Below, piece after piece: positions 35,312 through 41,488 of a stretch of DNA of 41,488 nt. Position 1 is the first letter of the stretch. Every line of letters starts with the position of its first letter. The position numbers and the translations under genes are program-made. The stretch spans positions 1-41,488 of the forward strand of contig WQVN01000007.1 in the NCBI GenBank assembly GCA_009785795.1, read 5' to 3'. Source of the stretch: Coriobacteriia bacterium. GTDB lineage: Bacteria; Actinomycetota; Coriobacteriia; WRKU01; WQUG01. Under the pieces are notes generated by a model. That model had not been told where the DNA came from. It saw only the letters and a list, made by a program, of their open reading frames with translations, and ran no database searches.

Positions 35312-35332
35312 ACTGGGAAATTTATTTCCAGT
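35312..35332. terminator. Weak hairpin between pstB and the helicase gene
   Basis: ACTGGGAAAT and ATTTCCAGT pair with one bulged G around TT. It overlaps the helicase stop codon. Only short T/A runs are nearby, so its terminator role is uncertain. Confidence 0.35.
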
Positions 35333-38000
35333 TATCCCTGCGTGTCGCACGCTTTCTCTCAAAGAAGCGTTCATTGTAGTCAAAGCTGCCTCTTCGAGCA
35401 CGAAGCAATGCGCTTCTGCCCTCGGTATTTCGCGTATAAATAAGCTTTGATTTTCCGACATGCTTCTTCCAGTGCTTGTGAAATATATCAGCGTTTGATC
35501 TGTTGTTGCCAAACAGGTTGGGCACGTTGAAGTGTGAAGCTCTAATCATCGATTTAATCGTAAGCAAATAGCGAGGATTATCAACACGTGAATATATCTC
35601 CTCGATGCATTTGATATATAGGTTATTTTCATACATAGTTGCTCCATGCAGGCTGGTACTGTGCTCATTAACGGCGGTGTGATTGTCAAACTGTATAGGA
35701 GTCTTTTCCGTGCGGTTGGACACGAGTTCCGGAGCTGTTTTTATTGCACCTAGATCATGAAGGGCAGCCAAGGTAGCTTTACCTACTCTGTCCATATTCC
35801 TAACAGGATTAAAGTGGCCAATCAGCTTGCCAATGAAATAGAGCTGCCATCCAACACCCAACAATGACCAGACAAAAAGTCCAGCATGTTGTCCCTCTGA
35901 TTGCGCAGTCAGAAAAATTGCACCAACAGCCGTAGCCACAAGGCCAAAAATCATTCTTTGCAAGTCAACAAATGCAAAGGTATTGAATCGTCCCTCTAAC
36001 CTGATATTGCCCTGCATGCTATTTACTATTTTGATGTCTTCGCCACCAAATAGTGCCAAAATCTCTTTCCATCGCCTGTGGGTCTCGCTGCGATTTTGTG
36101 CAAGTCCATACATTTTTTGATTGATTTGCTCGTGTTGTCTGAGCAGCTTCTCATCGTCACGTATTTCAAGATTCAAACGCTCAAGTCCGTTCTGGATAAG
36201 AGGCTCAGTGTATGCGATGCCAACAAAGCTCTGGAAGCGACGCTTTAAGGTATGGTAGTCACTCAGCTCAAGTTTCGAAAATAGCCTCCGCTGATAGTCG
36301 TGTCTGGTTATGCTGACCAGATGCCAGATATTTGCAACCTTATTTGGGTCGGCTTTGCTGCGCCTGATTGCCCTGCCACGCATTTGATTCGACAACATAA
36401 ACGAACCAACATAGCTTGCCATAATCAGACTATTGATTGCCTGACAGTCCCATCCCTGCCCAAGCAATGCTGCGGTGCCAACAATAATGCTGATTCGCTT
36501 CTCAATCATCGCCTGCGTGATTATTCCCACTAATTGACTTCTATGTCTGTCGCTAGCGTGGATTGAAACGTATCCCTCAAAGGGCGTGTCGCGGAATTCG
36601 CATTCGGGCAATGCATCCGTGACAAAGGGAATTAGCGAAGTGGGGATTATCTTAAGACCTCCTGTCAGGATTGCAATATTGGGACAATCCCTTGACTGGA
36701 TAAGTCGCTTGAAAATGGGCACAACGCCTATCTTGTTATAATCTTTGTGCTCAAGGGCATCCCTGCGGATATAGTCGGTGAGGATGACCATGCTTAAATC
36801 GTCTTGCAGGCAGTCATATTCACGGCGTGCAATCTCTACAATACTTTCCATCTTGCCGACACTGCTTGCCATGAGGCGCTTAAGCGAGTTGTCGCCCTGA
36901 ATGACAACGCGCCGCCTTTCGATTCCACCAATTTGCCTGAGGTCTTTGCGCAGGGCTTCGATTACATCTGGATGGCGCTCAATTAGTTCATCGTCATCAA
37001 ACAAGATGCCTTGCAGCATAAGCTCAAGCCATTCCATGCTTTGTGGGGGAATGGGAGCTCTGCCGCCTAAAGCACGGGCAATTCTTCCATTTATCTTGCC
37101 GCCAACATCGTTTAGAAAGACGAGTAAGGCGCTGTAATATTGGGGATTTTCGAGAACCTTTTCTTCGTGCTGTTTGTAGTGGGCAAGCTCAGGCATTTCT
37201 GCAATGATGCCGATGAAGTCGTGATTGGATTTAAGCGTGTCAGCAAAATCTTGAAACCTTTCTTGAATGTCGAGGACTGTTCGTTCTTCCTCGCGAGAGA
37301 GCTTGTTAAAGATGACAAAGTCTTGATGAGGGCACAAGTCTCCTGTTGCGACTAATTCGGGAACTGAAATTTCGCAGTCAATTGGTCCAGCCAATTTAAC
37401 GTATCTGTCCCATTCGGCCTTATCGACATCATAGGGAGGCGTTGCGGTGAGTGAAATGGTCTGTACTCCTTCAAGTCCGTCAAGAACTTCGGTAAGGCTG
37501 TTCCACCATGCGCGGCGCAAATGATGAGCTTCATCCAGAACAATAACTTTTATGTCCCGTGCCTTCAATTCGGCAATTAGGTCGTAGTCGATTTCTGCTC
37601 CATGAACAGTGGGAGTGTTTTCATCCTCTTCCTCGGAGCTATCAAGTGTCTCTTCGATTTGCCTGCGCTTATGAGCAAAGTGCAATCCTTGATAGGTGGC
37701 GACATTGAATCTGTCCAGGTTATAGATATCGCTGCTGATAAAGCTTGGAGCAGGATTGCCTTGCACAAATAGGGTCAGGAAGCGGTCAACCCACTGGTTT
37801 TTGATGGTAAGTGTAGGCGAGAGAATCAGAACGTTTTTGTTTAGGCGACGTATGACTTCAAGTCCTAGTACTGTCTTGCCCGCACCAGGAGCTGCCACTA
37901 CGTGCAGCTTATCGTCATGCATATGTCGTTCAAGTTCTGCTAGTACGTTTGCCTGGTACTTTCGCCACGGATATTTGAAAGTGTAGTTTTTAAGAAACAT
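35322..38000 (-). CDS. SF2 DEAD/DEAH helicase with C-terminal membrane helices
   Basis: About 892 residues from ATG 38000, which has AGGA five bases upstream; an ATG at 38048 is in frame but overlaps a likely -10 (TACAAT). Numbering from 38000: Walker A APGAGKT at 37-43, DEAH at 156-159, TATP at 185-188, and the helicase C-terminal motifs GTAALLGQGWDC and QMRGRAIRRS near 540. So it should be an ATP-driven nucleic-acid translocase. A Glu-rich loop (SSEEEDEN) precedes the DEAH motif. Near 680-735 are two hydrophobic stretches, QRMIFGLVATAVGAIFLTA and AGLFVWSLLGVGWQLYFIG, that look like a membrane hairpin; about 160 polar residues follow, ending in a very basic tail. Membrane helices in an SF2 helicase are unusual. 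No nuclease, methylase or phage gene is adjacent. Function unknown; a defence role is speculation. Confidence 0.85.
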   Translation of the reverse strand: MFLKNYTFKYPWRKYQANVLAELERHMHDDKLHVVAAPGAGKTVLGLEVIRRLNKNVLILSPTLTIKNQWVDRFLTLFVQGNPAPSFISSDIYNLDRFNVATYQGLHFAHKRRQIEETLDSSEEEDENTPTVHGAEIDYDLIAELKARDIKVIVLDEAHHLRRAWWNSLTEVLDGLEGVQTISLTATPPYDVDKAEWDRYVKLAGPIDCEISVPELVATGDLCPHQDFVIFNKLSREEERTVLDIQERFQDFADTLKSNHDFIGIIAEMPELAHYKQHEEKVLENPQYYSALLVFLNDVGGKINGRIARALGGRAPIPPQSMEWLELMLQGILFDDDELIERHPDVIEALRKDLRQIGGIERRRVVIQGDNSLKRLMASSVGKMESIVEIARREYDCLQDDLSMVILTDYIRRDALEHKDYNKIGVVPIFKRLIQSRDCPNIAILTGGLKIIPTSLIPFVTDALPECEFRDTPFEGYVSIHASDRHRSQLVGIITQAMIEKRISIIVGTAALLGQGWDCQAINSLIMASYVGSFMLSNQMRGRAIRRSKADPNKVANIWHLVSITRHDYQRRLFSKLELSDYHTLKRRFQSFVGIAYTEPLIQNGLERLNLEIRDDEKLLRQHEQINQKMYGLAQNRSETHRRWKEILALFGGEDIKIVNSMQGNIRLEGRFNTFAFVDLQRMIFGLVATAVGAIFLTAQSEGQHAGLFVWSLLGVGWQLYFIGKLIGHFNPVRNMDRVGKATLAALHDLGAIKTAPELVSNRTEKTPIQFDNHTAVNEHSTSLHGATMYENNLYIKCIEEIYSRVDNPRYLLTIKSMIRASHFNVPNLFGNNRSNADIFHKHWKKHVGKSKLIYTRNTEGRSALLRARRGSFDYNERFFERKRATRRDNWK

Positions 38001-38186
38001 GTACGTCCTAATGTTGCGGTCTATTCCAGTTTGTTTTGTTGCTACCATTGTACGGGATTTGAGTGATTCTCCTCAGGGAGAGAGGGAGAAGTATCTGTCG
38101 CTGTTGCTAAAGTTTGTGATGCAAATCCGTTCCCTACCGTTCTTTGACAGAATGGAGCAGGTGACCTCAAGCAGTAAAAACGTATG

Positions 38187-38254
38187 TATAATATATGACT
38201 ACAGACAAACAATTGCCCTGCTGGCAGTGCTTAGTTGCAATACTTGCTTGCAAC
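38187..38254 (+). promoter_or_regulatory. Promoter -10 and leader hairpin of the surface-protein gene
   Basis: A consensus TATAAT lies at 38187-38192; -35 is weak (TGACCT at 38162-38167, 19-base spacer). The roughly 80-base leader contains a perfect 7-bp hairpin, GTTGCAA (38234-38240) with TTGCAAC (38248-38254), ending 23 bases before the ATG. Confidence 0.5.
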
Positions 38255-38277
38255 GATCTAGTTCGCAAAGGAATAAT

Positions 38278-41200
38278 ATGGCTTTATATAATGCGGGTCA
38301 TGACTCATCACAGAATTCAATAGGTAAGAGCTGCTTGAGGAAGCGGATACGTGCCGCACAAAGGTCAATGCAATACAGCGCTTCTGGGCAAGAATCATCT
38401 GTAGGAAAAATCATTCTGGCCGTAGTGGCCTTTCTTCTTTTGGCACTTCCTTTAGCAGCGACTGCCACTGTTGGCGAATTGCAGAATTCCCTTGATCAGG
38501 CTTTGGGTTCCAACGCAGATCCTATTAGCCTACAGTGGATTACTCCAAATGTAGATTCAAGCCATTTAGAACTTGATCCTGAGAATAATCTGATACAGAG
38601 ACTTGTTTTTCAGCTTAATTTTTCCCTTGAAGGACATGAAACTTTCGAGACAGGTGATCTTGAAATCAGGATGCCAAGAGCGCTTTTCGAAGACAGGAAT
38701 GGCAATTTAATTGTTGGGAACGTGCCAAACCCGCTTGATGGACCTGCAATGATTGCGCCGCACATGTTTATTCCGCTTCCTGCACCTGGCATTCCTTACA
38801 ATTACAGGATAGATACTGCTACTAATGAAGTTGTTATTTACAACTATCGGACTGTTTCTGCAGACGATCTGCATACAAATATCCAGATTGAAATACATTA
38901 TTTGCCCAGTCAAAGTCCAAATGGCTTTAGCAATGAATTCAGTGCGACAGCGAGCTTTGCGCCACAGCACGACAGACCGCCTGCGCAGAGCAATTCTTTG
39001 AGCTTTGATCTTACAACAAGAGTAGTTCCTTTTGATGTTGCGACAAGTCCTGGAGCTCAGGGACAGGCAAAATTGTTACAAAATTCATTTGCTGTATGGC
39101 AGCCCATGTGGGGAACACCCATTGTAAATAGTGAAGATTTCTTTTTTGTCCAGTATTCGCTGCACTGGAGATTTGACACTCGAACAACGCAGCCTGCAGT
39201 TTTGCGGTTGATTGAATCACCTCTTGATGGTGGTGAAGTAGTTGCGTGGGGTCCATTAAGTAATGGTGTATCAAACACACCGCCAACTTCCTTTACGCGT
39301 GGCACGACGGCAAGCTTTAATGCTGAAGCAGCCAGAACGTGGAATTATACCGTGCCTGCTGCACCAGGAGCCAACGCTGCATTTACCGCGCGCAATCAAT
39401 CACTGATTGTTGCCTATCCTCGCACAGGAGCATCAGAACAAGTTGTTACAAATACAGCACAGTTAGAAATTACTCCTGCAGACTATGTTCGCGATGCAGT
39501 GGCAAATCCGCGCATCATTCAAGAATTGGAAAGAGAATACACTTTTCACACGCTTGAATATGAGGGAGACTTGTTTAATCATTCAAAGATTATGGGCTTT
39601 TCACCGACGACGGTCTGGAGTCCTGTTCTCACTATTCTCGAGGCAGGTTATGACACCCTTGTTATGCCAAATAATCTTGAAAGCGGTGCTGGAAATTGGC
39701 CAAATCACGGCTTTGATGCTCCTATTCCTCGAATATATCAAACAATTATTGGAAGTGCGCGAGGATACGAAGCTTCGCTGGAAGCAACGCAACCCTTTAC
39801 AACAACACTCATTGATGACCATGTGTATCTGGGGACAGGAGCCACAACATCATTTGGACCGACCTTGGAATTGCACCAATTAGAACCAGAAGATTACACC
39901 TTCACACAGGTAAGAATTCACTACTTAAGGGAACTGGAAGCTGTGCAGAGTAGCGCGGGCGACTTCTTAGGTGCACGCCGTGTTCCAAATGCACAAAGAG
40001 CGCCTAGTGGAATTCGCTTGTACTATAAAACGTCAGCAGCGTCTGGATGGCAGCATCTGAGCACTTGGAATCCTGCAGCAGATGTAGGTAGCGCGTGGTT
40101 TACCCTTCCTAATGAGGGAGTCAGTCAGGTAAAAGCAGTGCATGTGGATGGTACTTTTGCAGTGGAATTTACTTTGGCATATCGCATACGCTTAAATGCG
40201 ACCCCTAATGTTCTTGACATAATTGACGGCTGGGATTTTGTTGACGTAAGAAATTTTAGTGCCATGATTGTCACAGATCACACAGGCGCAATTGTAAATA
40301 CCGTAGACAGTTATGCTGGCACTGCATGGCGAGATTTCGAAGACAGGGATCGTGAAACATTTGGCGATCTAGTAATGCGTGCATCTGACTTTATGCGCGT
40401 AGGCAGAGTGAATTATACTTCTGATATGCAGAAGGGACTTCGTGGTGCTACTACTCATGATGCAGAAAATGCGCGAATCATCATACCGTACCGAATATGG
40501 GGCAGTGCTCGTGCCCAAGGAAATAGTTTTAGTGCTGGTCATTCAGTTCCATTTCCCCCAACCGTATATGCGCAGCTTCTAACAGAGCAGACATCAGCAG
40601 TTTTCTATGATTTGCTGCCCTCGGGGACATTGATTGATCCTTCAAGCATTGTTGCACGCAATGCCCTTGGCGCTACCGTTGATAGCGTGCTTGTTCTTAC
40701 AGAAAATTGGCAAAACAGTGGGCGGACTCTAGTTGAAATACATGTGAGCGCTGCCGAGGGAACAAATTTCCGGCAAGCTGACGCATCTCAGAATTTGATG
40801 ACCGTTACGACGCCATTGTTGTCAGGCACAGGCTTTACCGTAGATTTCAATGTGTTCTATTCATGGGATAGTGCTACATTGTTTGGCACATCGCTGAGAA
40901 ATATAGCAAGTTATCAGTCGCGAAATGGCGCATTTCAAGGACCCTTAATTCAGTCGGGCGGTCAGCCACATTCAAATAGCAACAATACAGCTACTGTGCT
41001 TACCGAGGCAGAGCGACTGTTTATGCAAAATTTTCCAAATACAGATATGCTTAATCAAAATGAGCGAAATACGCGATCGGCAGGATTTAACCACACTGTG
41101 TTGCCCGTGGCGGCACAGCATGTAGGCTTTAGTAAAACAGTGCGAGCGTCAACTGATACAAGTTATGGCATGGATACAAGCGTGCGACCTGGGTCTACCT

Positions 41201-41488
41201 ATAGCTATAGATTAGCTTATTCCTTGAGTCCCACAGGTGGGCAAGCAAGCAATATCGTTATTTATGATGTGCTAGAAAACGCACACGATGGCAGCAATTA
41301 TTGGCGCGGCATACTTGAAAGCGTCGATGTGAGTCACCCCAGAATGCTTAACATTCAGCCAGTTGTCTACTACTCGACAGTGTCTGGACTTAATCCACAA
41401 GGAAATGCGGCACATGCAAATTTAGCAAACGCTGCTATTTGGTCAACAACAGCACCAACAGATCGATCTACCATCACTGCAGTTGCCA
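38278..41488 (+). CDS. Very large secreted surface protein (adhesin-like), 3' end outside window
   Basis: Open reading frame without a stop from ATG 38278 (AAGGA six bases upstream) to the window end: 1070 complete codons. A basic 40-residue leader (KRIRAAQRS) precedes a hydrophobic core, KIILAVVAFLLLALPLAATA, near residues 44-63: a long-type Gram-positive signal peptide. The rest is rich in Asn, Thr, Ser and aromatic residues with beta-strand patterns, and almost free of Cys. A segment near 945-985 (GFSKTVRASTDT...PGSTYSYRLAYSLSP...VIYDVLENA) resembles DUF11-like repeats of actinobacterial surface proteins. No exact internal repeats are seen in this part. A C-terminal LPxTG anchor or Cna-type repeats may lie downstream. 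The ligand is unknown. Confidence 0.85.
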   Translation, partial: MALYNAGHDSSQNSIGKSCLRKRIRAAQRSMQYSASGQESSVGKIILAVVAFLLLALPLAATATVGELQNSLDQALGSNADPISLQWITPNVDSSHLELDPENNLIQRLVFQLNFSLEGHETFETGDLEIRMPRALFEDRNGNLIVGNVPNPLDGPAMIAPHMFIPLPAPGIPYNYRIDTATNEVVIYNYRTVSADDLHTNIQIEIHYLPSQSPNGFSNEFSATASFAPQHDRPPAQSNSLSFDLTTRVVPFDVATSPGAQGQAKLLQNSFAVWQPMWGTPIVNSEDFFFVQYSLHWRFDTRTTQPAVLRLIESPLDGGEVVAWGPLSNGVSNTPPTSFTRGTTASFNAEAARTWNYTVPAAPGANAAFTARNQSLIVAYPRTGASEQVVTNTAQLEITPADYVRDAVANPRIIQELEREYTFHTLEYEGDLFNHSKIMGFSPTTVWSPVLTILEAGYDTLVMPNNLESGAGNWPNHGFDAPIPRIYQTIIGSARGYEASLEATQPFTTTLIDDHVYLGTGATTSFGPTLELHQLEPEDYTFTQVRIHYLRELEAVQSSAGDFLGARRVPNAQRAPSGIRLYYKTSAASGWQHLSTWNPAADVGSAWFTLPNEGVSQVKAVHVDGTFAVEFTLAYRIRLNATPNVLDIIDGWDFVDVRNFSAMIVTDHTGAIVNTVDSYAGTAWRDFEDRDRETFGDLVMRASDFMRVGRVNYTSDMQKGLRGATTHDAENARIIIPYRIWGSARAQGNSFSAGHSVPFPPTVYAQLLTEQTSAVFYDLLPSGTLIDPSSIVARNALGATVDSVLVLTENWQNSGRTLVEIHVSAAEGTNFRQADASQNLMTVTTPLLSGTGFTVDFNVFYSWDSATLFGTSLRNIASYQSRNGAFQGPLIQSGGQPHSNSNNTATVLTEAERLFMQNFPNTDMLNQNERNTRSAGFNHTVLPVAAQHVGFSKTVRASTDTSYGMDTSVRPGSTYSYRLAYSLSPTGGQASNIVIYDVLENAHDGSNYWRGILESVDVSHPRMLNIQPVVYYSTVSGLNPQGNAAHANLANAAIWSTTAPTDRSTITAVA

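Follow-up and report, generated by a model that had tools for sequence, protein, structure and literature searches.

SF2 helicases are well known, and the solved structures closest to the protein considered here are those of the XPB, Hef and RIG-I type. Helicases are also part of several defence systems. PbeA is the helicase of PbeABCD (DNA phosphorothioation), whereas Mokosh combines a helicase with a PLD nuclease, either fused or as a partner. HamB of Hachiman is described as a sensor helicase (PMC12278908). The window analyzed here, i.e. the whole stretch of 41,488 nucleotides from a Coriobacteriia bacterium (contig WQVN01000007.1), encodes a protein that shares the motor motifs and the two-RecA architecture of the XPB/Hef/RIG-I-like helicases. 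The identity to these enzymes is about 14%, and the window protein differs from them by a predicted membrane hairpin and a C-terminal domain without a match. This hairpin architecture and the C-terminal domain are undescribed in the libraries and papers that we searched, and the same literature yielded nothing relevant on a membrane-anchored antiphage helicase. The features of the gene are as follows:

35322..38048, minus strand: whole gene, SF2 helicase with a predicted hairpin and a C-terminal domain, 908 aa
36309..37973, minus strand: helicase core, residues 26-580 (Pfam ResIII/DEAD; AlphaFold2 pLDDT 86; Foldseek)
Within the core, minus strand: RecA1 26-235, helical insert about 250-395, RecA2 396-580 (AlphaFold2 and Pfam)
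36864..37301, minus strand: helical insert between RecA1 and RecA2, residues 250-395 (secondary structure of the AlphaFold2 model)
35814..35981, minus strand: predicted transmembrane hairpin, residues 690-716 and 721-745 (hydropathy, homologue alignment, AlphaFold2)
35325..35807, minus strand: C-terminal alpha/beta domain and basic tail, residues 748-908, NPRYL..VPxxFG..YTRxxxGR (models, homologue searches)

An alternative start at position 38000, which is Met17 of the 908-residue frame, is the likelier beginning of the gene, because most homologues start nearby. As the preliminary description had claimed, the protein retains intact helicase motifs: Walker A (APGAGKT, with Thr59 as the last residue), DEAHH (172-176), LTATPP (200-205), GTAALLGQGWD (524-534) and NQMRGRAIR (554-562). 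Walker A, DEAH and motifs III, V and VI thus follow in order across two RecA domains, as expected of an SF2 enzyme of the ResIII/DEAD type. The Pfam scan of the window protein matched ResIII (E = 2.4e-19) and DEAD (E = 9.4e-10) and no domain other than the helicase; a nuclease or toxin domain that could act as effector was not recognized. The AlphaFold2 model of the whole protein, built with 68 aligned sequences (pLDDT 86, pTM 0.86), is composed of RecA1, the helical insert, RecA2, a helical bridge, two long helices and an alpha/beta domain. The insert presumably occupies a position comparable to that of the insert in Hef, RIG-I and Dicer helicases. The GC content of the gene (0.461 vs 0.474) is ordinary.

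The best solved structures found by Foldseek were XPB-Bax1 (3.7e-14), Hef (4e-12), RIG-I (5e-12) and FANCM (2e-11), with Dicer also matched; the TM-scores were modest, as several domains were compared at once. The protein scored 34 bits against the NCBIfam XPB equivalog, for which the cut-off is 610. Among the PADLOC models, PbeA gave the most frequent match in the family (E-values as low as 5e-15), but the match covered only some 220 residues of RecA1; the remainder of the protein was unmatched, and there were no partner genes. For the window protein and the members tested, no PADLOC 2023 model gave a full-length match, only partial ones in the helicase region. The likeness to Mokosh, Hachiman and other helicase-based defence systems lies in the helicase as a possible sensor; in contrast to them, neither a nuclease partner nor a fused PLD domain was found. 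Pfam detected no PLD in the protein and PADLOC no Mokosh model, and the gene stands alone in the window, with no HamA nuclease beside it and no match to a Hachiman model.

Where the preliminary description had seen a basic tail, AlphaFold2 placed mostly a folded domain (748-895), and only a short end after it is basic. Modelled alone, the C-terminal domain reached a pLDDT of 89.8. Its comparison with Pfam gave single weak matches, that with PDB sequences gave no match of note, and no PDB fold was found by Foldseek below E = 0.18; judging from the model, the fold may be new. In 548 Bacillota and Bacteroidota genomes, all convincing matches to the domain sit in frames of 876-931 aa, that is, in full-length helicases, and for this reason it seems to be a module private to the helicase family.

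Scans with the single sequence returned no relatives in either genome or viral contigs. An alignment scan succeeded for the genomes, with 119 relatives in genome contigs, 80 of which were kept; in viral contigs, it matched nothing beyond generic helicases. The relatives belong to Bacillota, Bacteroidota, Actinomycetota, Pseudomonadota, Verrucomicrobiota, Melainabacteria, Planctomycetota and archaea, including Thorarchaeota, and the closest of them are at most 39% identical to the window sequence. The family is rare and patchy, even inside one genus: of the genomes searched, 3/250 from the window's class, 25/201 from Flavobacteriaceae and 33/147 from Streptococcus contain it, and the gene is absent from the window's genus mate. 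Since the family tree groups largely by phylum, we infer that losses were many and that transfer over long range was limited. Two records labelled as phage carry a family member. One of them, a GenBank 'Bacteriophage sp.' from a fecal sample (L034), resembles a bacterial chromosome, with ABC transporter and pyruvate formate-lyase-like genes. Two copies are broken. In another genome of the window's class (L264:8496-11330), an otherwise intact frame is interrupted twice by TAG, first in place of the motif VI glutamine, so that the copy looks recently inactivated; stop-codon recoding was ruled out there, as all three stop codons terminate long frames at this locus. The copy on a Rhodovulum plasmid (L032:8293-11183) is divided between two annotated genes and also looks inactivated.

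In the window, the gene indeed lies between a transporter operon and a surface-protein gene, namely the pst operon on one side and a large surface-protein ORF on the other. When compared with the genus mate and with a member of the same taxonomic family, the DNA is similar across the pst operon up to 35287 or just before, which is the end of pstB, and both relatives carry a different gene after pstB. In consequence, the helicase gene occupies a lineage-specific spot. Contamination was ruled out: PstB is 86% identical to that of the genus mate, and the contig therefore belongs to the lineage. The surface-protein-like ORF (38000-41487) runs past the contig end, and its third-position GC is 0.36, compared with 0.42-0.48 in seven other window genes.

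The preliminary description had suggested a single-gene antiphage system, and whether homologues with the same C-terminal part lie in defence islands depends on the lineage. In mitis-type streptococci, the helicase gene adjoins a conserved gene for a VTT-domain (TVP38-like) protein, and downstream of it lie HsdR, HsdM and HsdS, SIR2/HerA-like pairs or KAP-like ATPases (HerA and KAP were named by eye). Twenty genomes have the VTT gene and lack the helicase; in 17 of them the site holds restriction or other defence-type genes, and in 3 it holds none. A defence hotspot of these streptococci therefore carries the helicase gene as optional cargo. A control with random Streptococcus regions gave 3 generic matches in 57 proteins. 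The VTT-adjacent site is polymorphic across the loci inspected (L223-L242, L298-L317), with type I RM, SIR2/HerA-like genes, KAP-like ATPases or nothing. The hotspot supports a defence role but does not prove it, because hotspots also gather other accessory genes. No such adjacency to defence genes was seen in the diverse other lineages, where PADLOC gave one generic match (E up to 1e-25) among 134 immediate neighbours, a set that covers lineages other than Streptococcus and the flavobacteria described next. In most Flavobacteriaceae genomes inspected, the gene lies between hemB and hemF (gene names assigned by eye). Clustering of the neighbours produced no clear recurrent partner apart from this synteny and the Streptococcus VTT gene.

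We place the two hydrophobic stretches at 690-716 and 721-745, slightly later than the 680-735 given originally. Their best 19-residue Kyte-Doolittle means in the window protein are 1.75 and 1.39, and since a segment of the RecA2 core (458-476) reaches a comparable 1.72, the hydropathy of this copy is marginal and alone would not decide on a hairpin. The homologues are more telling. Two segments at the hairpin position reach 1.2 or more in 63 of the 85 full-length members, which come from bacteria and archaea; the medians are 2.08 and 2.09, whereas the best score outside the hairpin has a median of 1.54. The hairpin is strong in, for example, the Oceanobacillus (L082) and Tenacibaculum (L068) copies. 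A short loop (median 8) joins the segments, and the mean number of Lys and Arg is 2.8 in the N flank, 1.2 in the loop and 3.4 in the C flank. Column conservation at the hairpin (0.24) is the lowest in the protein; it is 0.41 in the C-terminal domain and reaches 0.53-0.54 in the two RecA domains. Hydrophobicity that is kept while the sequence is not, together with basic flanks, is the signature of a membrane hairpin, and AlphaFold2 models both stretches as long helices, albeit with modest confidence (10-residue block means of about 60-78). Several members (L033, L097, L104, L110, L111, L112) have no hairpin, and it is therefore dispensable in part of the family. These absences, the marginal window copy and the modest model confidence would also suit a soluble helicase with the hydrophobic helices packed inside the protein. 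We consider that arrangement improbable, given the short loop, the basic flanks, the low conservation and homologue segments with mean hydropathy of up to 3.3. The nucleic-acid motor tied to the membrane, as proposed originally, is thus well supported as a prediction.

The protein is very probably an accessory stand-alone SF2 motor with a predicted membrane hairpin and a C-terminal domain, and likely an uncharacterized membrane-tethered helicase that belongs to the accessory genome in most lineages. In the mechanism that we propose, an XPB/Hef/RIG-I-like motor would be anchored in the cytoplasmic membrane by the two-helix hairpin, with motor and C-terminal domain both cytoplasmic. At the membrane, the motor would bind duplex or branched nucleic acid and travel along it, chiefly to the benefit of the cell against incoming phage or plasmid nucleic acid, and the C-terminal domain may recognize the substrate or act as effector. 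An anti-phage role is plausible, at somewhat less than even chances, and the whole proposal of a tethered motor with a defence benefit is as tentative. Patchiness, the lineage-specific site in the window, the Streptococcus hotspot and the broken copies speak for the proposal; the single match among 134 neighbours, the hemB/hemF place, conserved like that of an ordinary gene, the lack of a nuclease or toxin domain and the hairpin-less members speak against it. The most specific version is doubtful: a single-gene immune system, common to bacteria and Asgard archaea, in which the tethered RIG-I/Hef-like motor would meet foreign nucleic acid on its entry and act by way of a C-terminal domain with a new fold.

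A defence role and a cellular role in nucleic-acid metabolism weigh about equally in our view. A membrane-associated helicase of the accessory genome could serve DNA repair, stress response or RNA metabolism without any part in defence, and the Streptococcus hotspot would then be a coincidence, an insertion site open to any accessory gene; this is quite possible, if short of an even bet. The neighbours outside Streptococcus, which are not defence genes in the lineages scanned, the conserved hem-cluster site, the tree largely by phylum and the generic helicases in viral contigs are all compatible with such a role, whereas strong patchiness within a genus, the lineage-specific window site and the broken copies fit it poorly. 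Many streptococci are naturally transformable, and the occurrence of the family among them, together with the predicted link of the motor to the membrane, could suggest a motor for DNA uptake or conjugation, which had also been proposed originally. Nothing in our results points to uptake, and we regard it as very improbable: the recurrent neighbours that we read include no competence or conjugation gene, most Streptococcus genomes searched lack the family, and members occur in archaea as well as in unrelated lineages.

It is unusual for a helicase to have a membrane hairpin of its own, and the family described here adds a dedicated tail domain without a recognized relative. Should the gene serve in defence, it would provide a single-gene sensor positioned at the membrane, and one overlooked by island-based searches because it is seldom found in islands. 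The Streptococcus hotspot, where related genomes differ in the presence of the gene, makes the defence question directly testable.
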